The translations under genes and the position numbers were made by a program. Source: Arcticibacter pallidicorallinus (GTDB taxonomy: Bacteria; Bacteroidota; Bacteroidia; Sphingobacteriales; Sphingobacteriaceae). Taken from it: a DNA stretch of 64,000 bases. The DNA is taken from positions 1-64,000 of the forward strand of contig NZ_PVTH01000005.1 in assembly GCF_003002875.1 (NCBI RefSeq), given 5' to 3'. Shown here in pieces: positions 1,323-40,409 of the stretch (positions are counted from its first letter, which is position 1; every line of letters begins with the position of its first letter). The notes beneath the pieces are model-generated. The model was given only the letters and a program-made list of their open reading frames with translations. It had not been told where the DNA came from and searched no databases.

Positions 1323-1339
1323 CTAAATTGGATGAAATC

Positions 1340-22634: not shown

Positions 22635-22760
22635 GAGTATACTGTCAGCCAAATATCTGAAATGTATTGACACTTAATAATACTCTGGCACTATTTTAAA
22701 AGAAAAAAATCAAATCCCCCGATTCTCATGTTTTCTATTTATCTATCTAAAACATCTGTT

Positions 22761-23177: not shown

Positions 23178-24500
23178 TTACTCCGGACGAGTTTCAGAAG
23201 TAAAGAGCTCTTGTTTGCGCGACTCTTCCTCCTCCTGTAAAGACTTTCTTTTCCAATAATTAGCGAGAATTGACCCGGAGATGTTCATCCACGGACTGAA
23301 GACCGCCGCGGCAAGACCGACGGTTCCCAGCTTGCCCATTGAGCCAGCGATTCCTGAAGCCATTCCACCATTTTGCAGTCCAACTTCAAAGGCTACGGTC
23401 CGAGAAGAAGATTTGTCCAAGCCAAACCAACGACTCAGGTAATAGCCAAAAATATAGCCCGCTGCGTTATGGATCACTGAAGATATAAATAACAGAAATC
23501 CGATCTTTAATAGGTTGTCTCTTCCTGCAGCGGTCGTAACTGTAGTAAAATAAACGATACCAAACATTGAAATATAGGGCATCAGCTCATCGAGGTTTTT
23601 AAATCGCAGGGTCGCATAGTGATAAAGCAGGCCCACAATTATAGCTCCCGCAAAGAAGTTAAGCGTTTCGATCAGTTGCATAAATTCCGGAGATAAGTGA
23701 TTAGCTAAAATTTGCCATAGTCCTAAGGGCATCATGCAAAGGAGGGCTGCTGAAACAAGTGCGGCCCTATGGACAAATGTCCGACCACTGAAACCAGCGT
23801 TTTTCAAGTAATCATGAACCAAAGCAGCACCAATAGGAACGATCATTATTTTGATAATTTCCATCATCATCTCCACGAATTTCACCTCAATCATTGTGCC
23901 CGCAAAAAGTTTCATCAATAAGGGCGTCATGAAAGGCGCTACAAAGGTAGCTAAAGCCGTCACTGTCACAGACAAAACTAGGTTAGCTCTGGCGATATAA
24001 ACCATCACGTTGGAAGCCAGTCCGCTCGAACAAGACCCGATAAGTATAATACCCGCTGCGATTTCGGTCTCGAAATTAAAAACTTGCGTAAGCAAAACGG
24101 CCATAAGCGGCATTATGGAAAAATGGCAAAGAAGACCGATCAAAACTCCTTTCCCGGTACTTGCGATACCGGCGAAGTCGCGGATACTCATCTGAATACC
24201 CATGCCGAACATAACAAACTGGATGATGATCAGAATGACCCACTTGTTACGCAGATCAAAATTACCCCATTGCAAAAAGGCAGAGGGATAAATCATCCCG
24301 GCGACGACTGCCGTAATAATCCAGGCAGTATACTGGTAGTTACGCAGAGCTGATATCGCTCCGATTCCAATTGCCAGACACACAGAAAGTGTCACCGCTG
24401 AAGCCTGCCACAAGGATGCATTCTCCGTGAACAACCCTGCAAGGAGACATATCAGCGCAACCAGAGAGACTGCAAGACATATTCTTCGAAAACTATTCAT
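23178..24500 (-). CDS. BASS-family (bile acid:Na+ symporter-like) transporter
   Basis: The 440-residue protein has about ten membrane segments. It carries BASS-type motifs in GSCSSGLASNVM (the family GGNxxSN region) and EVGLQNGGMASGIA. Members move organic anions with sodium: bile acids, pyruvate, glycolate or pantoate. It is the last gene of the thirteen-gene minus-strand operon and its start overlaps the racemase-family gene by 8 nt. By context it may import the operon's acid substrate or export a product acid such as glycolate; direction cannot be told. Confidence 0.88.
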   Translation of the reverse strand: MNSFRRICLAVSLVALICLLAGLFTENASLWQASAVTLSVCLAIGIGAISALRNYQYTAWIITAVVAGMIYPSAFLQWGNFDLRNKWVILIIIQFVMFGMGIQMSIRDFAGIASTGKGVLIGLLCHFSIMPLMAVLLTQVFNFETEIAAGIILIGSCSSGLASNVMVYIARANLVLSVTVTALATFVAPFMTPLLMKLFAGTMIEVKFVEMMMEIIKIMIVPIGAALVHDYLKNAGFSGRTFVHRAALVSAALLCMMPLGLWQILANHLSPEFMQLIETLNFFAGAIIVGLLYHYATLRFKNLDELMPYISMFGIVYFTTVTTAAGRDNLLKIGFLLFISSVIHNAAGYIFGYYLSRWFGLDKSSSRTVAFEVGLQNGGMASGIAGSMGKLGTVGLAAAVFSPWMNISGSILANYWKRKSLQEEEESRKQELFTSETRPE

Positions 24501-25170
24501 AAATCGATGCTTTTCGAAGTTCTGCGATGTGTGCTACAGCAATACCGGGGCTGGCGAGGATGGGAACAATTTTGTCTTCAGGTGCAAGTGTTTCCACTAC
24601 CCGCGACATAGATGCCTGAGCTAAAACAATGACGTCTACATTCTTCGATAACTCGATCAATGCCTTGGATACCATCTCGTCGTGCTTCTCCGGATCGCCG
24701 GTCATCAGGGCATCAAACGCTCCTTCGCAGAGCTTTGCCGTCAGATCGATTTCCTTTCCTGCTCTAAGGGCCATCCTTCTAACAAGGTCACTTGTTGGCT
24801 CCAATGTTGTCGGAAGTGTAGCTATCACTCCTATTCTGCTTCCGGTTTGGACAGCCTGTTCCGCCATTGCCTGATCTACCCTTAATACAGGTACATTCGT
24901 CAACTTAGCAGAAGCTTCCACTGCTGCACCAATGGATGAACAAGTAACCATTATCAAATCTGCACCTGCATCTTCTGCTGAACCAACATGATTTACAACC
25001 CGTCGTGCTGTATGGTTAGTCAGCTGATTTTTTGCGATGACATCCTTGATCAGGCTGTCGTCAACGATATTAAATACACTCACATCCGGCAGCAGGTCAC
25101 TACATAGCTTTTGAAAAATAGGTACAAGTGTTGCAGATGTATGAATAAGCCCTAAAGTTTTAAGTTTCAT
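24493..25170 (-). CDS. Asp/Glu/hydantoin racemase-family protein with one catalytic Cys
   Basis: The 225-residue protein has the two-domain racemase fold: an N-terminal LGLIHTSATL, Cys77 in IMVTCSSIG and a mirrored second site in IVLAQASMSR. In racemases the second site carries Cys (LGC). Here the position is Gln185, so two-base racemisation is unlikely. Single-Cys relatives include decarboxylases and isomerases such as arylmalonate decarboxylase and maleate isomerase, though their Cys placement differs. It lies 22 nt after the DUF1537 kinase. It may isomerise or decarboxylate a pathway acid. Confidence 0.8.
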   Translation of the reverse strand: MKLKTLGLIHTSATLVPIFQKLCSDLLPDVSVFNIVDDSLIKDVIAKNQLTNHTARRVVNHVGSAEDAGADLIMVTCSSIGAAVEASAKLTNVPVLRVDQAMAEQAVQTGSRIGVIATLPTTLEPTSDLVRRMALRAGKEIDLTAKLCEGAFDALMTGDPEKHDEMVSKALIELSKNVDVIVLAQASMSRVVETLAPEDKIVPILASPGIAVAHIAELRKASIYE

Positions 25171-25192
25171 ATTGGTTGTTTTAATTGGTTAG

Positions 25193-26581
25193 TTATTTTT
25201 GTTCTCCTGTAGATGCTTTTATAAAATAGTCAGGCTTACCGACCTGGCCTCCCTTGAAATTTAGCTCCAGACCGTCAAGGGGCGAACCCGGAGCTCGGGC
25301 CCGGCAGAGCGGGGCGCCTGGAGCGAAAGCTGAAATCATTTCGACGGACTCAATACCCATCGCTCTGGCTGCATAGCTCGAGGTATCACCTCCCGCGATA
25401 ATTATCCTTTTAACATTAGCTGCCGCCGTCAGCTCTCTGACTATCTGCCCCAATAAGGTGCCATATAAGTATGCGCTGTCTGACTGCTTATAGCCGCCGA
25501 TTTCGAAAGCCTTTCTTGCTCTCCGCAGCCGTTCATCTCCAGTACCACAACTTGTATGTATAAGAATGTTTTTGCCCTCGTTTAAGTATTTACGTCCCAT
25601 ATTTACGTAATCTTGTTTTTGAGAGGTGTACTTTTCTGACGATTCGAATACTTCCGGATCAACAGGTATTTCCGCGAAGCCGGCAGCCAGCGCCGCCTTG
25701 ATCTGACCTCCCGTCACTGGCGAGCAGCTACCTGAAATCACCAGGATTGGCGAGTCAGAAGGTCTAAGCGCCTGTGCTTTCCGAGCGGTAGTGAGCCCTT
25801 TCTCTTTCCAGAAAGAAGCCAGGGCTGATCCCACTCCAGACGATCCCACAGAAAATAGTGGAGTTTTTTTTGTCGCTTGCGCATCAAGAATTCCACCTAT
25901 TCGTTCGATTTGAGAATCGTAAATTGCATCGAAGAACACTATCTCAGCTCCGTTTTCAACAAGCCTCTCGACAAGTAATTCGGTTTCTTCAGCAGGACGT
26001 TCGATCTGCAGGATATCCACAAGAGCGATGGCTTTATCCGTTTGCTTCTGAAGATGCAGGCGAAGATCACTCTCTTCAGAGGGCGTCGTCGGGTGGTTGA
26101 TCATAGAAGGATGCCTGTCCAGACGATGTATTGTTCCATCGCTACCTATCCCCATTCTCGCAAACAGGTTCCCAAAAACACAATAACGGCCGAGGGTTGG
26201 AGCAGCTACGAGAACAGGAACAAATGTTGATTCGAAAATCCTAGCCCCTGTTTCAAGTGCTTTGCCGATACTTCCAATAAACGGAGAGGAATCAAAAGTG
26301 GAACAAACCTTGTAATGCACATGCCGCGGATTGAGTTCCAGCAATTCGGAGTAAGCCTTGCGTAAGGTCTCCTCCATCTGTTCCGGCCGCATAGATCGCG
26401 TCATACCCGCCACTCCAATTGCTTGAAGTCCATCATACTTCGCCAGCTGGCTTTTAGTAGGTGGGTCAATGAACAAAACTGTCTGTATCCCTGCAAGACT
26501 TAACGATTCCAGGGCGTCTGTTGAGCCGGTAAAGTCATCACCATAAAATGCTATCAGCAAGCTATTTTCAGAGTCTATCAT
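25193..26581 (-). CDS. DUF1537 four-carbon acid sugar kinase family protein
   Basis: The 462-residue protein has both domains of the family. The N-terminal acid-sugar-binding domain carries FYGDDFTGSTDALE. The C-terminal nucleotide-binding domain carries VISGSCSPVTGGQI, GGDTSS and FKGGQVGKPDYF. Known members (OtnK, DenK, OiaK) phosphorylate 3-oxo-tetronates or 3-oxo-isoapionate with ATP. The start overlaps the end of the RuBisCO-like gene by 4 nt, so the two are coupled. That pairing matches the OiaK/OiaX logic, in which the kinase product is the substrate of the RuBisCO-like protein. The exact substrate is inference. Confidence 0.9.
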   Translation of the reverse strand: MIDSENSLLIAFYGDDFTGSTDALESLSLAGIQTVLFIDPPTKSQLAKYDGLQAIGVAGMTRSMRPEQMEETLRKAYSELLELNPRHVHYKVCSTFDSSPFIGSIGKALETGARIFESTFVPVLVAAPTLGRYCVFGNLFARMGIGSDGTIHRLDRHPSMINHPTTPSEESDLRLHLQKQTDKAIALVDILQIERPAEETELLVERLVENGAEIVFFDAIYDSQIERIGGILDAQATKKTPLFSVGSSGVGSALASFWKEKGLTTARKAQALRPSDSPILVISGSCSPVTGGQIKAALAAGFAEIPVDPEVFESSEKYTSQKQDYVNMGRKYLNEGKNILIHTSCGTGDERLRRARKAFEIGGYKQSDSAYLYGTLLGQIVRELTAAANVKRIIIAGGDTSSYAARAMGIESVEMISAFAPGAPLCRARAPGSPLDGLELNFKGGQVGKPDYFIKASTGEQK

Positions 26582-27822
26582 TTCTTCCCAAATTTCTCAA
26601 CTGACAAAGCAAACTCCGGATATTTAGAAGCGGTTTCCGCCACGGTCAGCCCTTGAACGGCACCATGCCATGCCTGATGAAGAGCCGTTACTCCGGCACC
26701 AGGTCCGCCCGGATGGGCAATGATTCCTCCGCCTGCCATGTATAGGAGATCAAGTGTCTGCGTGCGCTTATAAGTTTCAGGAGCTTGTCCACCCCATTGA
26801 CCCGAAGAAACCACCGGGAGAACAGAATATCCTCCGAATAAAGGTTTTTGACATGCCTCAATTGACCTAACCACCGAATCGTCAGATTCCCAGAATTTAT
26901 TTTGAATGCCATTGACATGGATCTGATCCACACCTGCCAACCGCCATAACTTCTGATACGCCGGAAATTCAATTCCCAGAAGAGGATGCCTGTTCATCAT
27001 CCCCCAGCCATTCCGATGGCCATGGATAGCCAATTCACCGATATCACAAATCTTCTTTGCGGCCGATATACCCACACTATTTAAACTGATCATTGCGCAA
27101 GTACCGCCGGCACTAATCACTTTCTCATAGTTACGCTGCATCTCGTCCATATCGTCGCTGATGTTAAAGGCATACATCACCTTTTTCCCGGTTTTATCTG
27201 CGTGATCATTGATCACACGCATGACGGCATCCACCCTATCCTCGAATGGAGAGTTTGCGGATGACGACAGCAGCTCATCATCTTTTATGAAATCTATGTC
27301 TGCCCCGGCTAAGGTTCGCACCAACTCTGCTGTTTGCTGGGGACTGAGACCCACACTGGGTTTGATGATGGTACCGATCAGTGGTCTGTCATAGACATTT
27401 GTCAGCTTCCTGCAGCCATCGACACCAAACTTAGGGCCTTCAAAAACCTGCGAATAAGAATGCGGAAACTCAATGTCCATCAATTTAAGACCTGTGAACT
27501 GTGTCAGTTCGTAAAGATTGCCCTGCAAGGTGGAAATAAGAACCGGGAGATTGTAACCGAAGTTCTCTACCGACCAGGACACCTCGATCATCGCCCGTTG
27601 ATAAACCCCGGCCTTGACTTCTACACCCGGAATCGCAGGTGTAGTTGAGGAGTCTAAGACTGTGACAGACTCCACTCTGGCAGCGAAGCGATGTTTAAGC
27701 TCCTCCGTTTCGCCCGGCACAGCAACGAATGTTCCGGACGATTGCTCCCCTGCGAGCACTGTCGCTGCATGGTTTAGGTCGAGAGGTGTCTCGATATAGT
27801 ATTTAGCTGTTACTCTTTGCAT
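26578..27822 (-). CDS. RuBisCO-like protein (form IV type), sugar-acid phosphate lyase candidate
   Basis: The 414-residue protein has the RuBisCO large-subunit fold. Lys154 lies in IGTIIKPSVG (equivalent of K175). The metal site is intact: Lys180, Asp182 and Glu183 in DFIKDDE, where the Lys is normally carbamylated. Departures from true RuBisCO are Ser at the second Lys of the KPK motif and no recognisable loop-6 catalytic Lys. It is therefore not a CO2-fixing enzyme. RuBisCO-like proteins OiaX and XacX act on 3-oxo-isoapionate 4-phosphate as transcarboxylase/hydrolase or decarboxylase. Coupling to a DUF1537 kinase supports such a role here. Confidence 0.92.
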   Translation of the reverse strand: MQRVTAKYYIETPLDLNHAATVLAGEQSSGTFVAVPGETEELKHRFAARVESVTVLDSSTTPAIPGVEVKAGVYQRAMIEVSWSVENFGYNLPVLISTLQGNLYELTQFTGLKLMDIEFPHSYSQVFEGPKFGVDGCRKLTNVYDRPLIGTIIKPSVGLSPQQTAELVRTLAGADIDFIKDDELLSSSANSPFEDRVDAVMRVINDHADKTGKKVMYAFNISDDMDEMQRNYEKVISAGGTCAMISLNSVGISAAKKICDIGELAIHGHRNGWGMMNRHPLLGIEFPAYQKLWRLAGVDQIHVNGIQNKFWESDDSVVRSIEACQKPLFGGYSVLPVVSSGQWGGQAPETYKRTQTLDLLYMAGGGIIAHPGGPGAGVTALHQAWHGAVQGLTVAETASKYPEFALSVEKFGKK

Positions 27823-27840
27823 GATACGAATATTTAGATC

Positions 27841-29139
27841 TTAATGAGTAGAGGGTTTATAACCCCTCATTCCAAATAGGAGAATAATGATATAACAGAT
27901 GAGCGGAACAACATAACCGATCTGAATGTCGTCATGGTTGAGGTCGATTATCGTCCCCATCACATATGGAAGAATCGCACCCCCTACAATGGCCATAATA
28001 ATCCAGGATGAACCTGTTTTTGTACCCTCGCCTAATCCTGCTATGCCGAGAGCAAAAATGGTGGGGAACATGATAGACATAAAGAATCCCAAACCTCCCA
28101 ACGCGTAGATCACGTAAGCACCGTCTCCGGTGATGGCTACTACACAGAGCGCCACGCTGGCCGCCGCATAAATAGACAGCAGCTTTTGCGAGCTGATAAA
28201 TTTCAGAAAGAACGTACCTGCGAAGCGTCCAAACATAAACAGGAAACCGTACACTCCAAGATAATACGCAGCAGTTTTCTCGTCCAGACCACCTCCTTGT
28301 TGAGCCATGCGAATGAAGAAGCTGGTGACACAAACCTGGGCGCCTACGTAAAAGAATTGAGCCGCTACGGCCCATGAAAGATGACGGTGCTTCAATACCG
28401 AAAGAAAGCTTCTTTCTTTTTGTATGACTTCCGCGGGCGGTTTAACCTCCGGAAACTTGATAAAATAAAATAGCACTGCAACCAGCAAGAGGACACTACC
28501 AAGAATAATATAGGGTAACTTAACAGATGCAGCTTCTTCCATAAGATAGGAAAGCCGGCTGGCATCGGGCATAGCAGCAAGTTCTTCGGCTGAGTATTCC
28601 TTGCCCGAAAGAATAAACAGTGATCCTATGATCGGTGCTACCATGGCGGCAAGCCCATTGAATGATGCTGCCAGATTCAAGCGGTTGGAGGCGGTTTCAG
28701 GTTTTCCTAAAACTGCGGCATATGGGTTAGCTGCTGTTTCCAAAATGGTGAGTCCGCACCCAATAATGAAGAGCGCCACGAGAAAAAGCTCGTACATACG
28801 CGTATCTGCTGCCGGAACGAACAGAAAAGCACCAACAGAGAAAACCAGCAGGCCCATGATGATGCTGTTTTTATAGCCCCATTTATTCAGGATCGCTCCC
28901 GCTGGGATCGCCATGAGAAAGTAGGCCATAAACACCGCGGTATCTATCAGAGTGGATTGCCTGTTGTCCAGCTGGCATGCCTTTTTGAGGTGCGGAATCA
29001 AGATAGAATCCAGATTATGCGCCATTCCCCACAGGAAGAACAGGCAGGATATCAAGATAAAAGGGACCAGATACAGGTTGGGCCCCCCTGAAGTGGAATT
29101 GGCCCCCCTGGGTATCTCATGCTGATGATGTAAAGACAT
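27841..29139 (-). CDS. FucP-type MFS sugar permease
   Basis: The 432-residue protein has 12 membrane segments and the FucP/GlcP-family motif ETAANPYAAVLG after segment 4. It also has FLWGMAHNLDSIL in the first helix. Such permeases import monosaccharides with protons across the inner membrane. It lies 18 nt upstream of the RuBisCO-like gene. With SusC/SusD at the outer membrane it provides a complete uptake route for a small sugar or sugar derivative without any ABC permease. Confidence 0.9.
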   Translation of the reverse strand: MSLHHQHEIPRGANSTSGGPNLYLVPFILISCLFFLWGMAHNLDSILIPHLKKACQLDNRQSTLIDTAVFMAYFLMAIPAGAILNKWGYKNSIIMGLLVFSVGAFLFVPAADTRMYELFLVALFIIGCGLTILETAANPYAAVLGKPETASNRLNLAASFNGLAAMVAPIIGSLFILSGKEYSAEELAAMPDASRLSYLMEEAASVKLPYIILGSVLLLVAVLFYFIKFPEVKPPAEVIQKERSFLSVLKHRHLSWAVAAQFFYVGAQVCVTSFFIRMAQQGGGLDEKTAAYYLGVYGFLFMFGRFAGTFFLKFISSQKLLSIYAAASVALCVVAITGDGAYVIYALGGLGFFMSIMFPTIFALGIAGLGEGTKTGSSWIIMAIVGGAILPYVMGTIIDLNHDDIQIGYVVPLICYIIILLFGMRGYKPSTH

Positions 29140-29158
29140 GGTTTAATGTTTTATGCTG

Positions 29159-29602
29159 TTAGTTACTTCTTTTAACCATCAGCAAGTGATCGCAGACGAG
29201 AACTACTTCGCCATGCTGATTGATAATTTCTACGTGCTCGGTTACTGTCCCGAATTCTGGCTTCTTAGCATCCCCTTTGTCAGAAATAGTAACCACAGAA
29301 TGAATCGTATCTCCTATAAAAACGGGTTTGATGAATCGAAGCCTGTCATATCCTTTTGACATCGCTTCGGGGTTGATTTCTGAAGCGGTCAACCCAATGC
29401 CGATGCTGAATATCATCGTGCCATGTGCTATCCGCTGCTTGAACGGCTGGGTCTTACACCATTCAGCGTCCATATGATGCGGAAAGAAGTCGCCGGTGTG
29501 CCCTGCGTGCACCACAAAGTCTGTTTCTGTAATTGTTCGCCCAAGCGTTACCCGCTTATCTCCCAGTGTATATCCTTCGAAAAATGTTGATTTAAAATAC
29601 AT
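29159..29602 (-). CDS. MaoC-type hot-dog hydratase/dehydratase
   Basis: The 147-residue protein has the single hot-dog MaoC fold, with the catalytic pair Asp38 and His43 in GDFFPHHMD and the [10 protein letters not shown] helix. Members hydrate or dehydrate acyl-CoA esters (R-specific enoyl-CoA hydratase, mesaconyl-CoA hydratase). The usual Asn of GDxNPxH is Phe40, which may alter specificity. It follows the Gfo/Idh gene after 17 nt. Together with two CoA transferases in the same operon it points to a CoA-thioester branch. Confidence 0.88.
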
Positions 29603-29619
29603 GTTGATCGTCTTTGCTC

Positions 29620-30696
29620 TTAATCTTTTAATTGGTCTGAAACCCTGACACCGCCCTGGTCACTCGAAATGTAGGCACTCTCCACAACAGCCATCGTCTG
29701 GATGACATCCTCTACACCCGTGTGAAGAATATCTGAAGAACCCTCCTTAAACCGCATCAGGCTCGCCATTGTACCTATGAAAGCCTCCGGAAACCAGGAA
29801 CCTTCAAGCGCGATCGTTTTCCATTGTGGTGGCGTTCCTTCTTCGGGAATGCAGTATTCAAACAGGTCAGGAACACCGTCCGGGTAGTTCATCAGCAACC
29901 CCATTTTCGCCTTAATAACTCCTTTCGTCCCCTCCCACTTGATGAAACTTTCCTGATTGTGCGGACCAAAATCATGATCATGGTTTGTATTGATGACGGC
30001 ATGCATGGTATCTCCGTAGTCCATCAAAACGGTTGACCGCGAAGAAGAAAGGCTTTTAGCCGGATGCTTCAGAGTCTTGGCATATACTGTATCAGGGTTT
30101 CCGATGAATGATCTGATCAGGTCGATATAATGAATGCTGTGATACTGGATCTCCAGGCGCGGATGAATTTTTACCAGAGGAAACAGCTCCCAGGGAGTTT
30201 TCAGCGTAACGCGCACTTCCATATCATACAGCTCTCCGATCATTCCCTGGTCGATCATATATCGCGCCGCTGCAACAAAGGGAGCGAAACGCAACTGGAA
30301 ATTTATAGCGGCAACAAGGTTTTTCCGCCTGCAGACCTCCAGGATCTCTTTAGCCTGCCAGAAGTAATCCCCCATAGGCTTCTGGATCAGGACTGCTGTA
30401 CCGTCAGGAAGCTGGGTAAGAACCTCAACATACTGGTCGGGCATAATTGTTATGTCGTAAACTGCGTTTGCCGGTGCGTGAGCCACTGCATCGGCGACAG
30501 TATCATATACATTTGGAATATCAAACTCCCGGGCAACCTTCTCGGCGCGTGCTCTTGTTCTGTTCGTAATACCATGAACGAAGAATCCGGCCTTTTTATA
30601 CGCCGGAAGGTGGGCGTCACTTACGATACCTCCGGCTCCAATGATTATTATCGGCTGAACGGTTTTGGGTAAATCAGGCTTATAGGGTATTATCAT
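29620..30696 (-). CDS. Gfo/Idh/MocA-family dehydrogenase
   Basis: The 358-residue protein has an N-terminal Rossmann domain ([17 protein letters not shown]) and the EKP-equivalent loop as QKPMGDYF. The Gfo/Idh C-terminal domain contains the [12 protein letters not shown] histidine motif. It would oxidise or reduce a sugar or cyclitol derivative with NAD(P) in the cytoplasm. In known apiose catabolism the first enzyme, ApsD, belongs to this family, so a similar step is conceivable. It overlaps the solute-binding-like gene by 4 nt. Confidence 0.88.
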
Positions 30697-31940: not shown

Positions 31941-31950
31941 GGTTTAGTAA

Positions 31951-33093: not shown

Positions 33094-34243
33094 TTTGTAT
33101 ATTAAATTCCTGATTCAGTGTACTATTATGTGCTCCTACCTTCGGTGCTGGTTTAGAGGATAAAAGCTTCCTATTGTCGATCCGGATAGGGCTTCTTGTC
33201 GTCCGGATTTCCAAAGAGTCACTCACCTGAACAGACTGGCTGATGCCAAGCTGCCCAAAGGCTGGATGTTCAACAGCTCTTTTATAGTCTAAAACATCAG
33301 CACACCATATATCGAGGGGCACGAGAATTTCAAGCCAGTCTTTCGTGTGTTTCTCTTTAAATGTCTCCGAAAATGCCTCAAGAATGTCATCCCTTCTGTC
33401 GAAAGAAGAATTGCCACCGGTGAATAGTGAAGAAATATCACAGCCGATTGCTGCTGCAATTTTATTGAGATCACCCATAGCAAGCGCCAAATAGCCATCG
33501 GCAGTTTCATAGATTCCATAGGGAGCGCTTAGATAGGCGTGTCCTGCACCTTTTACATAGCTTCTTTGCGGAAGCTTCTTACCGTCGTTGAGATAGGTTG
33601 TGAGGACCTCAAACTGCATATCAAGCGTAGACTCCAGCAGGCTTACTTCCACGAGCACACTCTGTTTTGTCCTGGCCCGCTTGATTAAGGCGGCGAGGAT
33701 ACCCTGCGTTAAATGATTGCCGCACATGATATCGGAAACGGACAGACCAAAGGGAACAGGTCCCTGATCGGCTGTGCCCGAAAGGTAGGCTAGTCCCGAT
33801 AGAGACTGCACGAGCAGATCCTGCCCCGGCTTAGTGGCCCAGGGGCCGGCGTTGCCATACCCGGTAACGGTTGCATAAATAATTCTTGAATTCAAAGCCT
33901 TTACAGAAGCGTAGTCAAGTCCGATCTTTTCCATTACACCTGGCCTGAAATTATGTGTAATGACATCAGCCTTCGCAATAAGTTCTTTTACCGCATTAAG
34001 GTCGTCCTGATTTTTAAGGTCAGCTGCGTACGACTCCTTGTTTCGGTTGATGGTATGAAACAACAAGCTATCACCCTCAACAAACATATTTTTAATGGCC
34101 AGCTGTCTGCCCGCTTCGCCCTTCAGCGGACGTTCGATTTTTATCACCCTGGCACCCATATCTGCCAGTTTAAGGCCAGCCGACGGCCCGGCGAGAAACT
34201 GGCAAAACTCCAACACTAATAACCCTTCCAGCGGCCTGCTCAT
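33080..34243 (-). CDS. CaiB/BaiF (family III) CoA transferase 2
   Basis: The 387-residue paralogue of the neighbouring CoA transferase carries the catalytic Asp171 in [10 protein letters not shown] and the same RVIKIERP and [12 protein letters not shown] segments. It overlaps the preceding solute-binding-like gene by 4 nt (ATGA-type) and the next CoA transferase by 14 nt, so the proteins are translated together. Similarity to its neighbour is clear throughout, which indicates an old tandem duplication. The acid substrate is unknown. Confidence 0.9.
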
Positions 34244-35400
34244 ATCATCTGAAGTTTTCTTGATTTTAAGTAAAGTTTGTTCATTTCTTCCAGAACGGAT
34301 TTTTCTTCTCCGCCGTTCATCAGGTAGTTGCGCACGATGTCGCCCGCATGATCCTGGAAGTACATATGCCCGTAATAACGCGGACGTAGAAAGGCTCTTT
34401 GCAACGCAGGAAGCGTATCCGCAAAATAGTTATTCGTTTGGCGGTTAGCTTCAGCATTTTGCCAGGCTCCCAGGTGTCCCGGTTGACCGCCATTACTGAA
34501 GTAAAGCTTACTCTGGCATTCTTCTGATGCTACAAAATGAGCGTATTGTGCCGCCACATCAATATAAGCACAATGTGCTGAAATAGCCAGACCGGTACCT
34601 CCGATCGTGCTCCTCATATTGGATTTGCCGTCCAGGCTGATCATATCATGAAAGTGCAGCACTTTTCTGGCATATCCCTCCCGGGCATAATTGGAGTACC
34701 CATAGGCAAACGGACAATAGGCAATTTCATCAGTCTGAGTCATTGCTTCATAAACCTGTATCGGATTTCTTTCAAAATTGGCAACGTCTATGCGCGAGGT
34801 AAGCTCCCTGAACATTTGCAGGGCCCTCATTCCAACAGCCTCAGAGACGATCTTATCTTCCTCCTGACAAGGATCCTCGCCCAAAGAGCTACAGAACATG
34901 TAAAAGCTCATCAGCACATCGATCGGAATTCCCGCAAACGCAACAAGTCCTTTGTCAGCAAGGGACAGCAGCTGCTCGAAATTCTCAGGACGCTTGGTGT
35001 CAGCCTTCTCTAAAAGATCAGGTCTGCTTGCAGCGACGGGCGTCGCAGCATCAATAGGTAGTGCCCATTGATGGTTGTCATATGTGTAGCTTTCGTAAGA
35101 ATGGCCAACAGAATTTTGCTGTTGGTTTTTTAAAAATTCATCGGGTAGCACCTCATCCAATGGGATAATTGACCGCTTTTTAGCAGCAAACCCCGCCCAG
35201 GGATGATCGATTACCAGGAGGTCGAACCTTTTCGCAAGCTCTTCAATCGAGAAGTCTGCAAATTGCTGAAGGCTGCGCTTTTCCCAGGATATCTCAGTTC
35301 CTGGATATAGTTCCGAAAATCGCTGAGCTGTAGCAACCATTGGCACAAGCCCCCTACTGTGGTTCCATGTAATTCCTTTTAGCGTTATTGTATCTGGCAT
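34240..35400 (-). CDS. Solute-binding-protein-like protein without signal peptide (2)
   Basis: The 386-residue protein resembles family 1 solute-binding proteins: ITLKGITWNHSRGLVPM start, FDLLVIDHPWAGFAAK, IGGTGLAISAHC and AAQYAHFVASEECQ. It starts at the first strand, with no signal peptide or lipobox. Its similarity to the other solute-binding-like gene of the operon is low by eye. It is the third gene, 54 nt after SusD and overlapping the CoA transferase by 4 nt. The lack of an ABC transporter and of an export signal argues against a transport role. Confidence 0.78.
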   Translation of the reverse strand: MPDTITLKGITWNHSRGLVPMVATAQRFSELYPGTEISWEKRSLQQFADFSIEELAKRFDLLVIDHPWAGFAAKKRSIIPLDEVLPDEFLKNQQQNSVGHSYESYTYDNHQWALPIDAATPVAASRPDLLEKADTKRPENFEQLLSLADKGLVAFAGIPIDVLMSFYMFCSSLGEDPCQEEDKIVSEAVGMRALQMFRELTSRIDVANFERNPIQVYEAMTQTDEIAYCPFAYGYSNYAREGYARKVLHFHDMISLDGKSNMRSTIGGTGLAISAHCAYIDVAAQYAHFVASEECQSKLYFSNGGQPGHLGAWQNAEANRQTNNYFADTLPALQRAFLRPRYYGHMYFQDHAGDIVRNYLMNGGEEKSVLEEMNKLYLKSRKLQMI

Positions 35401-35454
35401 GTTTAAAATAAGTAAATGGAGAGGATGGTTCCTACCACCCTCTCGTGTTCTATG

Positions 35455-37017
35455 TTAATTATAGCCCGGGTTCTGCTTCAGTTGCGGGTTATTTAGTAAT
35501 TCAGATAAAGCAAATGGCAAAAGATAATTGTTTTCATTGAAAACAAGAGGTGTATTACTTGGAGTTTTCAATAAAGGAAGTTTAATATGGGCGATTTTCC
35601 ACCTCTTCAGATCGTTATAACGCTGTCCCTCAAGGGCAAATTCCACCCTGAATTCATGTCGTATATAATCACGTAACTTTTCCTTTGTATTATATTTCTG
35701 CTGGTCTACCGGTGGCATATTGATGCCGGGACGCGAGCGAACCTGATTGATCGCCGAGTACACAGACTGATCCGGCACCGCTAAAACCTCGTTCTTTGCC
35801 TCAGCATACATCAGTAAAATATCTGCGTATCGAAGATGTATATAGTCCTGATCCGTAGTCGTTGCTGTGGCCGAAGTGAAGGGAGCTTTTGCCAGATCAA
35901 CGTACTTTTCAACCAGGAAACCGGTAGCGGTCGTATAACTGTCTGTCCATGCAGCGCCGGAGGCATTTCTCCAAACTTCTCCGGGAAGCCTGACGGTTAG
36001 ATCCAGACGTGGGTCCCGGTTTGCATAAGGGTTGGCAGGATCAAACAATGACGACTCATTTGCCGGAAGCCCATCTTTCATTTCATAATCGTCGGCAAGA
36101 TCCTTGTACGGTTGCATCAATGACCACCAGCCAAGCTCGATGTTCATACCCGCAGCACCGGGGCGTATACGTTGCGGATTTACTGGACCAAGATACTGTG
36201 TGGAAAACATAATCTCCGAATTGACGGCCGCATTCGCTTGTCCGGCCGAAGTAAACAACGCAGCATAGTTATTCGACAGCGCAAAAAGTCCCGATGAGTT
36301 GCTCATTAAATCTTCCAGTACGGTAACGGCCTGGCTCCATTTCTGCTGAGTAACCAGCACTCTGGCTTTAATCCCCTGCGCACTTCCCTTTACCGCATGG
36401 CCATTGTATTTAGTATTAGGCAGATACTGGATCGCAAAGTCCAGATCTTCCTCAATGAAGGCGTAAACCTCTTCCTGACTGCTCTTGGCTATTTTATATT
36501 CCTCGAGCGATTTAAAGTAGTTCTTATAAATAGGAACTCCACCAAACAACTGAACCAGGTCGAAATAAGACAGTGCGCGAATAAAGCGTGCTTCAGCTTT
36601 GTATTTGTTTTTGTTCTCCTCCGATACCGGAGCCTTATCGATATTATCCAGAAAATAATTACAGGATGATATGGCACGGTACGGGCTACTATACATGTTT
36701 GCAATGGCACCCGTAACACCGGCGTTAATGCCGCCTGTCGTTAAAATTTGCATATTAGCCTGGTTTCCGTTCCCAGGATCCAGATAAGCATTGTCACTAA
36801 GACCATCCAGGTACACGCGTTCGTATCCGAGGAAGTTCTGCTGAAGCCGTGAATATACTCCGGCAAGACCTGTTTGAACGTCAGCTTCCGAAGCCCAGAA
36901 TATCTGGCTCGAAACGCTGTTTAATGGGTTCCGGTCTAAAAAATCATCATTACATGCGGTGCTTCCCAGTAAAATACTGGCAGTAAGCACACAGGCTATT
37001 TTAAATGTATGTCGCAT
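35455..37017 (-). CDS. susD: SusD/RagB-family outer-membrane lipoprotein
   Basis: The 520-residue protein has a lipoprotein signal ending GSTAC, followed by the SusD start NDDFLDRNPLNSVS. It has the TPR-rich RagB/SusD fold and the C-terminal SusD region (VRSRPGINMPP, HEFRVEFALEGQRYNDLKRW). It caps the TonB-dependent transporter encoded 9 nt upstream and binds the ligand at the cell surface. No surface glycan-binding protein or glycoside hydrolase accompanies it, so the ligand is probably a free small molecule or is released by enzymes encoded elsewhere. Confidence 0.95.
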   Translation of the reverse strand: MRHTFKIACVLTASILLGSTACNDDFLDRNPLNSVSSQIFWASEADVQTGLAGVYSRLQQNFLGYERVYLDGLSDNAYLDPGNGNQANMQILTTGGINAGVTGAIANMYSSPYRAISSCNYFLDNIDKAPVSEENKNKYKAEARFIRALSYFDLVQLFGGVPIYKNYFKSLEEYKIAKSSQEEVYAFIEEDLDFAIQYLPNTKYNGHAVKGSAQGIKARVLVTQQKWSQAVTVLEDLMSNSSGLFALSNNYAALFTSAGQANAAVNSEIMFSTQYLGPVNPQRIRPGAAGMNIELGWWSLMQPYKDLADDYEMKDGLPANESSLFDPANPYANRDPRLDLTVRLPGEVWRNASGAAWTDSYTTATGFLVEKYVDLAKAPFTSATATTTDQDYIHLRYADILLMYAEAKNEVLAVPDQSVYSAINQVRSRPGINMPPVDQQKYNTKEKLRDYIRHEFRVEFALEGQRYNDLKRWKIAHIKLPLLKTPSNTPLVFNENNYLLPFALSELLNNPQLKQNPGYN

Positions 37018-37026
37018 GGCAGTCTT

Positions 37027-40000
37027 TTAAAATTTTACATTAAGTCCTACGTTATAAATCTTCGCCTGAGGATATTGGGCGTAATTCCCAGTTGGGCTGG
37101 CGCGTTCCGGATCACCACCTTCGTATTTGGTAATGGTGAAAAGGTTGTCTGCAGATACATAAACCCCCAGATTTTTAGCTCCTACTTTTTTCGCAAAAGA
37201 AACTGGCACCTCATAAGACAGCATGATATTTTTCAGTCTCAGGTATGATGCGTCCTGCAGGTAATAGGTGGAGCTGCCGTAGCTTGCTACACCGGAGTAA
37301 CCGGCGATGTAGATACCAGGAAGTTCGTTGCTCCTGTTTTCGGGTGTCCATGCATCCCTCCACTTTGTAGTCGGTGCAGTACCTTGCATAAATGGATCGA
37401 TGCCCCAATTGTTCACGCGGCTCTTAATACCTTCTACGCCCTGAAAGAAACCATTCAACTGGAAACCCTTATAACCTACATTAAAACCGAATGAATACGA
37501 GAAATCCGGATAATATCCGTCGACCACCTGCCTGTCATTTACGTCTACCACGCCGTCGCCGTTCAGATCCTTCATCTTAAGATCGCCGGCCTTAGGGTTC
37601 ATGTTCAACGCATGTTTCGGAACGTTCGGATTGCCGATGTCTTCTACCTGGAAGATGCCGTCCCATACATAGAGGTAATGTGCGTCATAAGGTAATCCGA
37701 TTCTTCTGATGTTTGCCCCTGACTCCGCCGGAATCCGTATGTCCAGCACCTGATTTCTTGCCGTAGATATAAGTCCGTTTACGCCGTAGCTAACTTCACC
37801 AATTCTGTTTTGATGAGTAAGGCCCAGCTCGATACCCCGGTTACGCATCCTCCCGTCATTAAGCGTAGGCGCGGTTAAACCGAGACTTGCCGGAATAGGC
37901 TGCATCGCCAGAATGTCATACGTGGTCTTATCAAACCAATCGAATGTAAGTCCCAACAGACCGTTCTTAATGTCCAGATCAAGACCCAGGTCAAGCATTT
38001 TAGTCGACTCCCATCTCAGGCTCTGATCGCGAAACACATTGTTCACAGCACCCTGCTGAAGGGTGTTATTATCGAATGGATAGAATATATCGTTGATCAC
38101 CAGATTGTCCTGGTATAAATAGGTTCCTACGTCCTGATTACCGAGTATTCCATACGATGCTCTCAATTTGAAGTTACTCAACCAGCTAAAACGGTCCTTA
38201 ACGAAGCTTTCTTCAGAAACTATCCAACCCCCTGAAACTGATGGATAGAAACCCCAGCGGTAATCAGGCGACACTTTCGATGTTCCGTCGTATCGTGCGT
38301 TTACTTCCAATAAGTATTTCCCTTTAAAGTTATAGTTGGCACTTCCAAAGAAAGACCGCATAGCCCATTCTGAAGGCGCTTGCAGCGACGGAAGTCTTGG
38401 ATGGCTAAAGTAGAGCTGTTCCTGACCCGGCAGATATCCGGTAAGGTCTGTCAGCGCCGGAGCGACAGTATTTATCCTACGGCCTCTAAGGTTCTGATTT
38501 TTGTAAAATAACTGCTCATAACCTGCCAGAAAGCGAACATTGTGATCCTTCGCTATAGTAGTATTATATGTCGCGGTAGAATAAATTGTTGGATTCAGTA
38601 CTTTAGAATATTGATCGGTTACACCAAGAATATCGGGGCCAAAGGTATTACGGGTATAGTCGGCATTCCCTGATTCCTTTTGAAAGAGGTAAGCGTCATA
38701 ATTTTTCTGGTACATTTTATAGTACTCATCAACATAGTTCATCGCAACCTTTGTAGTCCAGGTCAAACCTTTAAATGGCTTTACGTCAATAAATGCCTGT
38801 CCGTTAAGATTGTACTCTTTAGTGCTCTGGTTTCCCATGGCATAGTATTCTTGTGGATTACGGTTCCTGCCTTCAAAAGCGTATGCTTTTGAAGCAATCC
38901 TGCCACTGCCGTCAGGCAGGAATGGGCCATATAATGGTCCTGCTGCGTAAATGGCCAGTGTGATGTTTTCTCCGGTGAAGGGAGGTTCATTTCTGTCTTT
39001 ATAGGTGGCATTGACCGAGGTCCCGATCGTAACAACTTTGCTTATATCGTTGGTATAACTAAGCAAGCCATTGTATCTTTTGAACTTATAACCTTTTATC
39101 ATTGCGTTTTGGTCGAGATATCCCAATGATAAATTGAACGTACTCTTTTCTGATCCGCCTGAAGCAGAAACACTATGGTTGGTTACTGTCGCAGGATTAA
39201 TGTAATAGTCGACGTTGTCGAAGTTCGGATACAGGTTTCTGTCCGTTGCATTCCGGTATTTTTCTATTTCAGCTTGCGCAAACTGGCTGCTTGCAGGAAG
39301 CCCCTGTCTGATAGCGGCGGCATTGAACATTTCCATATATTCCGCTGAATTTGTGATCAGATCAGGTAAAGCGGTAGGCGTATGCCTGGCCACGTTTCCC
39401 CGGTAACTGATAACTGTCTGCCCTTTCTTTCCTCGTTTCGTCGTAACCAAGATGACACCATTGGCTGCACGTGCTCCGTAGATAGATGCAGATGCGGCGT
39501 CTTTTAAAACGGTAACCGATTCGATATCATCGGGAGACAAATTACCGAAAGACCCTGTCACTCCATCAATCAGTACCAAAGGTTCGTTGGCTGTTCCTCC
39601 GCTGAACGATCCACGACCCCTTATCAGAAAGCTGGGATTGTCGCGACCTGGCTCTGATGAATTCTGGGTGACCTGAAGTCCGGTTACGCGCCCCTGCAAA
39701 AGAGAAGCTGCATTTGGTGCCGCTCTCTGTGTAAGGGTATTACCGGTAACAGACGCTACAGATCCGGTAAGGTTAACCTTGCGTTGTGTACCGTAACCGA
39801 CCACAATAACCTCATCCAAAGCTTTGCTATCCGTCTGTAGCCGAACGTTAATCGAAGTACGACTTTGGATGGGTACTTCCTGTGTAATAAAACCAATATA
39901 GGTAAAGACAAGTGTTGCATTTCCCGATGAGGAGATTTTAAAATTACCGTTGGCATCGGATACGGTTGAGAGGGCCGTTCCCTTCACTTTGACACTTACG

Positions 40001-40164
40001 CCAGGCAATTCCTCGCCGTCTTCAGCGGTTACTTTTCCTGAAATGAGTGATGAACCAGGGGTCTGTGCATAGCCAGCACTAGAATAACAGACATGGATAA
40101 GCAGATACGATACCGCTAAACATAGCCTTCCCCAACTAGTTAGAGTTAGTTTGAAAGTTTGCAT
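37027..40164 (-). CDS. susC: SusC/RagA-family TonB-dependent outer-membrane transporter
   Basis: The 1045-residue protein has a signal peptide ending in SAGYAQ, a carboxypeptidase-regulatory-like domain (ISGKVTAEDGEELPGVSVKVKGT) and a TonB box (DEVIVVGYGTQ). A plug domain (LLQGRVTGLQV, DIESVTVLKDAASASIYGARAANGV) and a 22-strand barrel ending LNVKF follow. No N-terminal secretin/STN domain is present, so anti-sigma signalling is not expected. First gene of the operon; a candidate promoter lies about 130 nt upstream. Confidence 0.96.
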   Translation of the reverse strand: MQTFKLTLTSWGRLCLAVSYLLIHVCYSSAGYAQTPGSSLISGKVTAEDGEELPGVSVKVKGTALSTVSDANGNFKISSSGNATLVFTYIGFITQEVPIQSRTSINVRLQTDSKALDEVIVVGYGTQRKVNLTGSVASVTGNTLTQRAAPNAASLLQGRVTGLQVTQNSSEPGRDNPSFLIRGRGSFSGGTANEPLVLIDGVTGSFGNLSPDDIESVTVLKDAASASIYGARAANGVILVTTKRGKKGQTVISYRGNVARHTPTALPDLITNSAEYMEMFNAAAIRQGLPASSQFAQAEIEKYRNATDRNLYPNFDNVDYYINPATVTNHSVSASGGSEKSTFNLSLGYLDQNAMIKGYKFKRYNGLLSYTNDISKVVTIGTSVNATYKDRNEPPFTGENITLAIYAAGPLYGPFLPDGSGRIASKAYAFEGRNRNPQEYYAMGNQSTKEYNLNGQAFIDVKPFKGLTWTTKVAMNYVDEYYKMYQKNYDAYLFQKESGNADYTRNTFGPDILGVTDQYSKVLNPTIYSTATYNTTIAKDHNVRFLAGYEQLFYKNQNLRGRRINTVAPALTDLTGYLPGQEQLYFSHPRLPSLQAPSEWAMRSFFGSANYNFKGKYLLEVNARYDGTSKVSPDYRWGFYPSVSGGWIVSEESFVKDRFSWLSNFKLRASYGILGNQDVGTYLYQDNLVINDIFYPFDNNTLQQGAVNNVFRDQSLRWESTKMLDLGLDLDIKNGLLGLTFDWFDKTTYDILAMQPIPASLGLTAPTLNDGRMRNRGIELGLTHQNRIGEVSYGVNGLISTARNQVLDIRIPAESGANIRRIGLPYDAHYLYVWDGIFQVEDIGNPNVPKHALNMNPKAGDLKMKDLNGDGVVDVNDRQVVDGYYPDFSYSFGFNVGYKGFQLNGFFQGVEGIKSRVNNWGIDPFMQGTAPTTKWRDAWTPENRSNELPGIYIAGYSGVASYGSSTYYLQDASYLRLKNIMLSYEVPVSFAKKVGAKNLGVYVSADNLFTITKYEGGDPERASPTGNYAQYPQAKIYNVGLNVKF

Positions 40165-40305: not shown

Positions 40306-40382
40306 AATAGTTATTTCATATATAAAAATAGATTTTTAATAATCTTCAGCCGGAGTTTTTTAAAACATAATGCGCCTATTTG

Positions 40383-40390
40383 TATGTTTG
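40383..40390 (+). promoter_or_regulatory. Candidate promoter -7 box of the IclR gene
   Basis: TATGTTTG fits TAnnTTTG exactly and lies 20 nt before the ATG at 40410, giving a very short leader. Because the box overlaps the upstream TTG reading, it supports ATG 40410 as the true start of the regulator. Confidence 0.55.
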
Positions 40391-40409
40391 TAATCCTAAA
40401 CCGCTCCCG

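Follow-up and report, generated by a model that had tools for sequence, protein, structure and literature searches.

Thirteen open reading frames form a single run on the minus strand at positions 23178-40164 of the window, the 64,000-nucleotide stretch of Arcticibacter pallidicorallinus DNA analysed here. In the ORF list of this 64-kb window the intergenic distances, read 5' to 3', are 9, 54, -4, -14, 10, -4, 17, 19, 18, -4, 22 and -8 nt, with 54 nt as the widest spacing and five overlaps. These coordinates agree with the original prediction of 13 same-strand genes with gaps of at most 54 nt, overlaps and a divergent IclR gene, and the family identities that it gave to the operon genes are recovered by Pfam or NCBIfam profiles. 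The features are, in the direction of the operon:

40380..41183, plus strand: IclR regulator, divergent from SusC (Pfam)
37027..40164, minus strand: SusC-like TonB-dependent receptor, first gene (Pfam Plug and CarbopepD_reg_2)
35455..37017, minus strand: SusD-like lipoprotein (Pfam SusD_RagB)
35419..35444, minus strand: 11-bp hairpin in the 54-nt SusD-SBP1 gap (RNA fold -18.8 kcal/mol, z -4.45)
34240..35400, minus strand: SBP1, MalE-fold solute-binding-like protein without signal peptide (Pfam SBP_bac_1)
33080..34243, minus strand: CTa, family III CoA transferase (CoAT; Pfam CoA_transf_3)
31951..33093, minus strand: CTb, family III CoA transferase (Pfam CoA_transf_3)
30693..31940, minus strand: SBP2, second solute-binding-like protein without signal peptide (Pfam SBP_bac_8 and SBP_bac_1)
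29620..30696, minus strand: Gfo/Idh/MocA oxidoreductase (Pfam)
29159..29602, minus strand: MaoC-type hydratase/dehydratase (Pfam)
27841..29139, minus strand: FucP-like MFS sugar symporter (NCBIfam fucP 359.4, above the cut-off of 280.4)
26578..27822, minus strand: RLP, RuBisCO-like protein of OiaX type (Pfam, NCBIfam, tree)
25193..26581, minus strand: DUF1537/four-carbon acid sugar kinase, OiaK-like (Pfam SBD_N and NBD_C)
24493..25170, minus strand: Asp/Glu racemase-family protein (Pfam)
23178..24500, minus strand: BASS (sodium/bile acid symporter family) carrier (Pfam SBF)

The adjacent SusC/SusD pair, assigned by Pfam, is a hallmark of polysaccharide utilisation loci. CAZyme genes are absent from the operon itself; a GH3 gene lies nearby at 43864-46491, and relatives show GH78, GH106, GH2, GH127 and GH28. 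The SusD-SBP1 hairpin is the strongest of 18 terminator-like sites found against 16.4 expected, and it may act as an attenuator or partial terminator that separates SusCD from the catabolic genes. The promoter scan, with 28 sites found against 26.3 expected, is uninformative. The divergent IclR protein is the probable regulator of the operon.

The last four genes, here termed module B, encode the RLP, kinase, racemase-family protein and BASS carrier, a set found in 8 of 8 genomes compared; the RLP and kinase genes overlap by 4 nt. The RLP scores 508.7 bits with the OiaX model NCBIfam NF042437, by far its best model, far below the 700-bit cut-off, and the same model gives 416-518 for four relatives from Proteobacteria or haloarchaea and for another two Bacteroidota RLPs. 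Similarly the kinase reaches 405.3 bits with the OiaK model NF042436, still its best model and below the 700-bit cut-off. The RLP scores 130.7 bits as an MtnW methionine-salvage enolase (TIGR03332, cut-off 513.6) and 225.3 bits as a type III RuBisCO (TIGR03326, cut-off 497.45), and falls below both. The proposed likeness to OiaX and OiaK holds, these being the nearest NCBIfam models, with both scores far under the cut-offs, and the RLP groups with the OiaX type instead of the methionine-salvage branch (508.7 versus 130.7 bits; tree). The best PDB match of the RLP is 3nwr, a RuBisCO-like protein (392.9 bits). In the tree the 11 Bacteroidota RLPs form a single clade (support 100/100), with an outgroup of 10 of the 80 weaker matches (27-31 % identity), which belong to another RLP group and are excluded from the count of 8 RLP genomes. 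Residues K154, K180-D181-D182-E183 and H267 are invariant in 13 of 13 aligned sequences, and the conserved Lys, Asp and Glu residues are presumably the RuBisCO-type active-site set. The racemase-family protein, previously described as single-Cys, contains three Cys residues. Two of them, C77 and C148, do not vary among 13 relatives, and a LAQAS motif occupies what we take to be the position of the second catalytic Cys. Its only PDB match is 2eq5, a hypothetical hydantoin racemase (E 1.2e-4).

Module A precedes module B and includes the two CoATs, whose CoA_transf_3 scores (CTb 311.8 and CTa 310.4 bits, cut-off 23.3) place them in family III. In alignments filtered to at least 44 % identity and 0.8-1.25 of the query length, CTa D171 is invariant in 93 of 93 sequences and CTb D170 in 94 of 94, each of which we take to be the catalytic Asp of the family, and D38 and H42 of MaoC are invariant in 85. 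RhaT occupies the place of FucP in some relatives. Likewise a crotonase takes the place of MaoC in some relatives where MaoC is not seen, and can substitute for it.

SBP2 is assigned to the solute-binding class by Pfam alone. The MalE-type fold of SBP1 is predicted confidently (AlphaFold2 pLDDT 92; Foldseek and VIA matches), its model aligning with 6jaq over 371 residues (VIA Z 37.7, rmsd 2.8); these matches show the fold only, and the lack of enzymes at the top of the lists is no evidence against catalysis. A simple hydropathy score, used in place of SignalP, lies below the signal-peptide threshold in 95 of 100 SBP1 ORFs, the other five starting upstream of the conserved N-terminus. It detects a signal-like stretch in none of 93 homologous SBP2 ORFs, and 9 of 9 proteobacterial SBP relatives are likewise below threshold. 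Controls above threshold include 8 of 10 SusD, 9 of 14 SusC and 5 of 5 true ABC SBPs, and the score errs toward calling signals, since it also passes the cytosolic CTa and Gfo of the window. Pfam identifies no ABC permease or ATPase gene among the 13 genes of the operon. With both proteins signal-less and no such partners, the uptake role implied at first for the two solute-binding-like proteins is not upheld; judged from their sequences, SBP1 and SBP2 are apparently kept inside the cell. MalE-fold relatives, wherever checked in Bacteroidota and Proteobacteria, also lack a signal peptide and mostly adjoin CoATs. Annotation labels SBP1-family proteins as extracellular solute-binding proteins, which would be wrong if they are enzymes or subunits.

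The SBP1 family is widespread, at least 589 pattern-matched stretches encoding a relative. Among 80 named loci, the best of these at least 589 and biased toward near relatives, gene order is non-random: SBP1-CoAT-CoAT-SBP2 is repeated in all 80, the module A order SBP1-CoAT-CoAT-SBP2-Gfo/Idh-MaoC-FucP/RhaT is kept through MaoC in 79, and, within flanks of up to 10 kb, an IclR match lies near the cassette in 18 and an RLP beside it in only 4. The order SBP1 to FucP-RLP-kinase-racemase of the window recurs in 4 Mucilaginibacter loci of the same best 80 of at least 589. Locus order was taken from tblastn matches with identity thresholds, sorted by coordinate, because gene calls based on the longest ORF are faulty in GC-rich loci of Hymenobacter and of Proteobacteria. 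Both CoATs are present in 19 of 19 sampled genomes with SBP1, 11 of which carry the cassette without a close RLP. The operon is two separable modules and not a single linear pathway. Scattering of the genes among relatives, weighed in the original prediction as evidence against it, is found in part: in 7 of the 8 RLP genomes 13-102 kb separate modules A and B, which nevertheless always share a contig. That prediction had the RLP cleave a branched sugar acid and the CoA branch handle the released acid, a scheme that agrees with the contiguity of the modules in the window and in 4 named loci (best 80 of at least 589) and with an apiose-pathway RLP that, according to PMC6302742, also performs transcarboxylation/hydrolysis of 3-oxo-isoapionate 4-phosphate. 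In contrast, the cassette is independent of the RLP, no close RLP accompanying it in those 11 of 19 genomes or in 76 of the 80 named loci (best 80 of at least 589; flanks up to 10 kb), and its FucP/RhaT sugar carriers point to a substrate of its own. The cassette also occurs in fucose-type clusters in several Proteobacteria and near GH141 genes in Bacteroidota, which argues against a CoA branch within a single RLP pathway, and we regard the scheme as highly improbable.

Involvement of apiose, also part of the original prediction, is supported by the co-occurrence of the RLP with Pfam Apiosidase (PF13204), found in 8 of 8 RLP genomes versus 32 of 387 others and lying on the contig of the RLP, 9-52 kb away, in 7 of the 8. 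SBP1 is present in all 8 RLP genomes versus 11 of the 387 others. Apiosidase occurs in 15 of 19 SBP1 genomes versus 25 of 376 without SBP1, and in 14 of these 15 it lies on the same contig as SBP1, 31-63 kb away. GH141 (E < 1e-60) is found in 14 of the 15 genomes with SBP1 and apiosidase versus 4 of the 25 with apiosidase and no SBP1, leaving uncounted weak matches in G154 and G182 (with SBP1) and G347 (without). Of 13 genomes with both GH141 and SBP1 on one contig, 11 have them 7-23 kb apart. The GH141 family is not specific to rhamnogalacturonan-II (RG-II), as it also contains a xylanase. The sampled genomes are related, many coming from one genus, so Fisher values for these counts overstate independence. 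An ApnO-like oxidoisomerase has no credible match in the 8 RLP genomes (one query; one match, E 6e-4), leaving the apiose route, as we understand it, incomplete there; an ApnO-like neighbour is annotated in 4 of 9 OiaX-type loci outside Bacteroidota, and none among the annotated neighbours in the other 5. Module A might then make 3-oxo-isoapionate from apionate in place of ApnO, with module B finishing a single apiose pathway. The missing ApnO, the close RLP that is never found without SBP1 in the genome sample, the apiosidase of most SBP1 genomes and the contiguous order in the window and the 4 Mucilaginibacter loci would all fit. Nevertheless, the cassette dispenses with the close RLP in 11 genomes, apiosidase is absent from 4 of the 19 SBP1 genomes, FucP/RhaT carriers and fucose enzymes adjoin the cassette and its proteobacterial relatives are of fucose type, making this pathway quite unlikely.

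The surroundings of the cassette in relatives often suggest fucose-type sugars. Fucosidase or fuconolactonase/fucose dehydrogenase genes adjoin it, and SBP1 relatives in Proteobacteria adjoin CoATs, mostly within fucose-type clusters. In G286, which has no GH141 match, SBP1 adjoins L-rhamnose isomerase and aldolase genes and the CoATs lie 61 kb off. On pSymB of S. meliloti the CoAT-SBP1 pair has no annotated sugar-pathway genes adjoining. A Microvirga locus encodes an SBP1 relative with no CoAT among its annotated neighbours. Both of these loci speak against a uniform context. An ordinary L-rhamnose or L-fucose route would account for the carriers and fucose-type enzymes of module A. However, a RhaI-type rhamnose isomerase is already present in 16 of 19 SBP1 genomes (RhaA-type, PF06134, in 0 of 19), for which reason the rhamnose route is rejected as the main reading, and at least 8 SBP1 genomes hold a separate UxaA-SDR-FAH cluster. 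We know of no rhamnose or fucose route that employs CoA transferases, and this option is very doubtful. FAH itself was rejected as a marker specific to module A, being carried by 69 of 395 genomes (E 1e-70), including 16 of the 19 with SBP1.

Clusters adjoining the cassette in Flavobacterium contain fucose dehydrogenase, lactonase, SDR and FAH hydrolase with no recognised dehydratase, and locus L082 reads SBP1-CTa-CTb-lactonase-RhaT-Gfo-MaoC-SDR-FAH consecutively. Both observations would suit a module A in which CTa and CTb shuttle CoA between a 6-deoxyhexonate and its 2-keto-3-deoxy product, MaoC dehydrating the thioester in place of an aldonate dehydratase and SDR and FAH finishing to pyruvate and lactate. 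The carnitine enzymes CaiB and CaiD provide the model logic, and the crotonase seen where MaoC is not, together with a nearby UxaA-type dehydratase at 8 of 13 separate FAH places in SBP1 genomes (by Pfam in G000, G170, G033, G214 and G324; by BLAST in G025, G222 and G316), is consistent with it. The 13 places are part of those found in SBP1 genomes, and the BLAST calls of UxaA and fuconate dehydratase compared about 11 kb of DNA with a single reference for each enzyme, one of the two being partial, so that other dehydratases could be missed. Against such CoA cycling, no dehydratase is recognised at 4 of the 13 (G080, G138, G150, G269) and a fuconate-dehydratase-like ORF lies at one (G182). FAH clusters with Zn-ADH and no recognised dehydratase also occur where SBP1 is absent (in genomes such as G387, G391, G292, G118 and G206), annotated L-fuconate dehydratase accompanies CoAT-SBP1 in alphaproteobacterial clusters, and the two SBPs are left unaccounted for. 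These counter-examples reduced what had been considered a universal replacement of aldonate dehydratase to a rival that we judge unlikely.

Module A might instead be a new catabolism of 2-O-methylated sugars (2-O-methylfucose of RG-II; algal and bacterial methylated 6-deoxy sugars), with SBP1 and SBP2 as cytosolic MalE-fold substrate-presenting subunits or catalysts, roles that to our knowledge are unreported for this class. The acid would become a CoA thioester, MaoC or crotonase would remove the 3-OH, giving an enol ether that the enzyme then re-hydrates, methanol would leave and the 2-keto-3-deoxy acid would join SDR/FAH. If true, this would explain why fucose enzymes and carriers occur with no aldonate dehydratase recognised, why GH141 is linked to the cassette and why ordinary routes for rhamnose and fucose are present alongside it; we rate it as quite unlikely. 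GH127 genes lie near the RLP in some relatives, and GH127 includes an aceric acid hydrolase. This had prompted aceric acid as a substrate of the CoA branch, an idea dropped since the carbon adjoining its carboxyl bears no hydrogen for elimination by MaoC.

Our preferred reading, to which we give about an even chance, is that the operon handles sugar catabolism within a utilisation system for RG-II-type pectin, with an apiose-derived and a fucose-type CoA-thioester branch. RG-II carries sugars that are among the rarest in plants, including apiose, aceric acid, 2-O-methylfucose and 2-O-methylxylose. Families, conservation, co-occurrence, the SBP1 fold and the lack of a signal peptide are computational observations, from which we infer every substrate and reaction. 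In branch B an apiose-derived sugar acid would enter the cytoplasm, presumably through the BASS carrier, the DUF1537 kinase would phosphorylate it and the RLP would decarboxylate 3-oxo-isoapionate 4-phosphate or a closely similar compound. The oxidoisomerase step, performed by ApnO elsewhere in the apiose route, would fall to another enzyme, perhaps the racemase-family protein or Gfo/Idh. Branch A would take up, via FucP/RhaT, a fucose-type 6-deoxy sugar released from this polymer and oxidise it to an acid by Gfo/Idh (with fucose dehydrogenase and lactonase where present). CTa and CTb would convert the acid to a CoA thioester for dehydration or hydration by MaoC, or crotonase in some relatives, and SBP1 and SBP2 may act in the cytosol, binding a pathway acid so as to hold or present it. 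The CoAT-SBP1 pairs in proteobacterial fucose-type clusters and the co-occurrence with GH141 and apiosidase argue for the two branches. Conversely, the low RLP and kinase scores, the lack of a credible ApnO and the SBP1 genomes without apiosidase argue against this reading, as do the marine and rhizobial relatives, which do not suggest RG-II, and the different contigs that hold apiosidase (C1), GH141 (C2) and the operon (C5) in the window's own genome. We know of few genes assigned to the intracellular catabolism of freed RG-II sugars in Bacteroidota, and for two of these rare sugars the operon supplies genes that can be tested.

D-apiose catabolism by OiaK/OiaX was reportedly described by Carter et al. 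in 2018. The operon shares with it a DUF1537 kinase overlapping an OiaX-type RLP, with apiosidase in the same genomes, and differs in scores far below the cut-offs, the lack of ApnO, the added racemase-family protein and BASS carrier and its setting within a SusCD operon. The non-phosphorylating L-fucose pathway consists of fucose dehydrogenase, lactonase, fuconate dehydratase, SDR and FAH hydrolase. Its enzymes adjoin the cassette in Flavobacterium and Alphaproteobacteria and the FucP carrier is in keeping with it, but the cassette adds two family III CoATs, MaoC and two signal-less SBPs, and the Flavobacterium cassettes have no recognised dehydratase alongside. The CaiB/CaiD carnitine system similarly pairs a family III CoAT with a hydratase whose substrate is the thioester, whereas the cassette has MaoC in most cases and another crotonase in some, a sugar context and SBPs. 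SBP1 has the fold of MalE-type ABC solute-binding proteins and, unlike them, neither signal peptide nor ABC genes in its operon, its gene overlapping that of a CoAT. In the available text of PMC5507952, which notes uncharacterised loci for fucose and rhamnose, the fuc locus of A. marincola HL-49 lacks FucD and a Rhodobacteraceae rhamnose locus holds six unexplained enzyme genes; compared by description, these loci have no CoAT or signal-less SBP named there, and the term 'CoA transferase' is absent from the available text of PMC10444878 and PMC5507952. A literature search with subscription papers mostly outside its reach found no published description of the module A cassette. For the branch of CoA enzymes and signal-less SBPs no earlier description was thus found, and the OiaX/OiaK-like branch resembles the known apiose route.

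The 13-gene minus-strand operon at 23178-40164 is real, as the original prediction held: the ORF listing of the window gives 13 ORFs with the strands and coordinates claimed, and the Pfam families agree (SusC, SusD, two SBP_bac proteins, two family III CoA transferases, Gfo/Idh, MaoC, MFS, RuBisCO_large, DUF1537 kinase, Asp/Glu racemase and SBF). Five neighbouring gene pairs overlap, the intergenic distances lie between -14 and 54 nt, and the only gap above 22 nt separates SusD from SBP1, the first solute-binding-like protein. The features in and around the operon are:

22728-23120, plus strand, next ORF of at least 100 aa past the operon
35419-35444, minus strand, strong 11-bp hairpin between SusD and SBP1 (-18.8 kcal/mol, z -4.45)
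from 40380, plus strand, IclR gene divergent from the operon

The hairpin may be an attenuator, keeping SusCD transcription above that of the catabolic genes. Adjoining the IclR gene, a Gfo/Idh protein (41309-42643, plus strand) whose N-terminus looks twin-arginine-like by eye may act in the periplasm, oxidising a sugar ahead of acid uptake through the BASS carrier. An almost identical pair of 164-aa ORFs (125-619 and 1328-1822, plus strand), with a related 205-222-aa ORF behind each, seems to reflect a recent tandem duplication; by eye, the 164-aa ORFs are perhaps papain-like or bacteriocin-type leader proteins.

The single route proposed through the RuBisCO-like protein (RLP) and a CoA branch is unsupported, the CoA transferase/MaoC/SBP cassette being independent of the RLP. 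Among 395 Bacteroidota genomes, close RLP relatives (69-100 % identity) occur in eight, the window's own included, and 80 relatives are distant (27-31 % identity), while SBP1 occurs in 19, comprising 8/8 RLP genomes versus 11/387 others (Fisher 5.5e-12, inflated by genome relatedness). The two genes are 8 kb from each other in the window; in the remaining seven RLP genomes they share a contig, separated by 13-102 kb. A Rufibacter tibetensis plasmid carries both modules inside 49 kb, with ~19 kb between them and pectin-type genes around, and Persicobacter psychrovividus has the cassette without an RLP within the 31 kb examined. Within flanks of up to 10 kb, SBP1, the CoA transferases CTa and CTb, and the second solute-binding-like protein SBP2 stand together in all 80 nearest named loci (the best 80 of at least 589), accompanied by Gfo (79/80), MaoC (79/80) and FucP (77/80); RLP, kinase and racemase appear in four, all Mucilaginibacter, two of which add the BASS gene. 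Both CoA transferases are present in 19/19 SBP1 genomes, and SBP1-CTa-CTb is contiguous in 17 of the 18 fetched besides the window's, the exception (G286) having the transferases 61 kb from an SBP1 that adjoins rhamnose isomerase and aldolase genes. In the Flavobacterium-type genome G206 (contig C1, loci L167 and L187) SBP1 and both CoA transferases were unmatched, as was MaoC nearby, and FucP-Gfo with FAH, fucose dehydrogenase, lactonase and Zn-ADH is retained despite this.

For the RLP and kinase, the apiose idea was rightly held. The RLP scores 508.7 bits against OiaX (cut-off 700), 225.3 against RuBisCO III and 130.7 against MtnW, and the kinase 405.3 against OiaK (cut-off 700); the OiaX cut-off also leaves out four proteobacterial or haloarchaeal relatives, because they score 416-518. 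The tree gathers eleven Bacteroidota RLPs into a single clade (100/100) that falls on the side of the OiaX-type proteins, far from the 29 % group, with Cupriavidus and Bradyrhizobium as weakly supported nearest sister (87/80), and active-site residues are invariant in 13/13. RLP, kinase, racemase and BASS are all found in 8/8 genomes compared (seven sampled plus Rufibacter). The apiosidase PF13204, which we take to be GH140, occurs in 8/8 RLP genomes (40/395 overall), in seven on the RLP contig, 9-52 kb off. A 6PGDH-type gene, presumably ApnO, adjoins the RLP in 4/9 loci fetched from outside Bacteroidota and had no credible match in the eight RLP genomes. Apiose is thus a good candidate source; one known step of its pathway being missing, the substrate may therefore be an analogue of the apiose-pathway one. 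Passages of PMC6302742 describe apiose-pathway RLPs as decarboxylating, or transcarboxylating and hydrolysing, 3-oxo-isoapionate 4-phosphate. On a plasmid of the alphaproteobacterium Croceibacterium (L182), an RLP-kinase pair comes straight after a beta-L-arabinofuranosidase-domain gene, and fucosidase, beta-galactosidase and TonB-receptor genes are close by, so that an RG-II-like locus exists outside Bacteroidota too.

The cassette is mostly associated with fucose-type genes. One Flavobacterium-type locus has, divergent from it, genes for fuconolactonase (267.4, cut-off 400), L-fucose dehydrogenase (353.9, cut-off 300), Zn-ADH, SDR and an FAH hydrolase whose best model is 2,4-didehydro-3-deoxy-L-rhamnonate hydrolase (367.6, cut-off 500). 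By BLAST, the lactonase/fucose dehydrogenase/Zn-ADH/FAH/SDR set recurs in many Flavobacterium loci, with ORFs resembling GH28 and, by our own reading of the sequences, PL10, GH105 and pectinesterase candidates. In locus L082, SBP1-CTa-CTb continues in a row with lactonase, RhaT, Gfo, MaoC, SDR and FAH. MaoC was unmatched in the 20-kb stretches of G182, where crotonase and aldehyde dehydrogenase come immediately after CTb, and of G107, where crotonase and, by our reading, an aldehyde dehydrogenase precede SBP1. Flanking CAZymes include GH78, GH106, GH2, GH127, GH28, GH141 and a fucosidase. A single ORF (L160:4770-7280) joins a GH141-type protein to a C-terminal L-rhamnose mutarotase (rhaM) domain, and frames of similar length (~830-870 aa) carry GH141 matches in other genomes.

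On proteobacterial plasmids of Martelella, Ensifer, Labrenzia, Shinella and Rhizobium (the last partially annotated), a CoA transferase-SBP1 pair accompanies mutarotase, IclR, MaoC and Gfo/Idh, with SDR, lactonase-type amidohydrolase, FAH or L-fuconate dehydratase as varying extras; the order is reversed in Ponticoccus, and crotonase follows the pair in S. meliloti pB and Variovorax. The pair on a S. meliloti pSymB has no sugar-pathway genes annotated alongside, and a more distant Microvirga relative adjoins two mannonate-dehydratase genes with no CoA transferase annotated; both contexts are exceptions to the fucose-type setting.

GH141, counted at E below 1e-60, is present in 14/15 apiosidase-positive genomes with SBP1 versus 4/25 without (Fisher 1.7e-6, relatedness ignored). 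In 13 genomes it shares a contig with SBP1, at a distance of 7-23 kb in 11 of them and of 48 and 120 kb in the other two. In the window's own draft genome, apiosidase and GH141 are on contigs other than the operon's. Parts of PMC10154630 report that GH141 BT1002 releases 2-O-methylxylose-fucose from RG-II chain A and GH139 BT0984 releases 2-O-methylfucose from chain B, another GH141 member being a xylanase; RG-II sugars are enumerated in a section of PMC12168206. The marine and symbiotic relatives can hardly all feed on RG-II.

SBP1 is confidently predicted to adopt a MalE-type fold (pLDDT 92.1, pTM 0.88), matching 6dtq (Foldseek 3e-19) and 6jaq (VIA Z 37.7, rmsd 2.8 over 371 residues). A signal peptide was not found on SBP1 in Bacteroidota or in nine proteobacterial relatives, and the same test saw one on five true ABC SBPs of the proteobacterial clusters. 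An alignment of 18 Bacteroidota homologues shows no variation at H14, R16 and G17, close to the N-terminus, or at many further polar residues, some of them presumably at MalE sugar-binding places; SBP1 therefore probably binds a conserved small ligand. CTa D171, CTb D170 and MaoC D38/H42 are likewise invariant in their aligned sets.

Rhamnose isomerase RhaI also occurs in 16/19 SBP1 genomes and a separate UxaA-SDR-FAH cluster in at least eight of the 19, the window's own among them; therefore the cassette should serve something besides plain rhamnose or fucose, or serve these under other conditions. Clusters with FAH but no recognised dehydratase also occur in SBP1-less genomes. The CoA transferase/MaoC/SBP part is thus an independent, widespread, mostly fucose-associated cassette, which in some Bacteroidota is combined with an apiose-type RLP module within RG-II-type loci, and its signal-less SBPs are the feature that is least accounted for and of most interest. 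Parts of PMC5507952 had already pointed to fucose and rhamnose loci in which enzymes are missing or unexplained, and the cassette may help to explain them.
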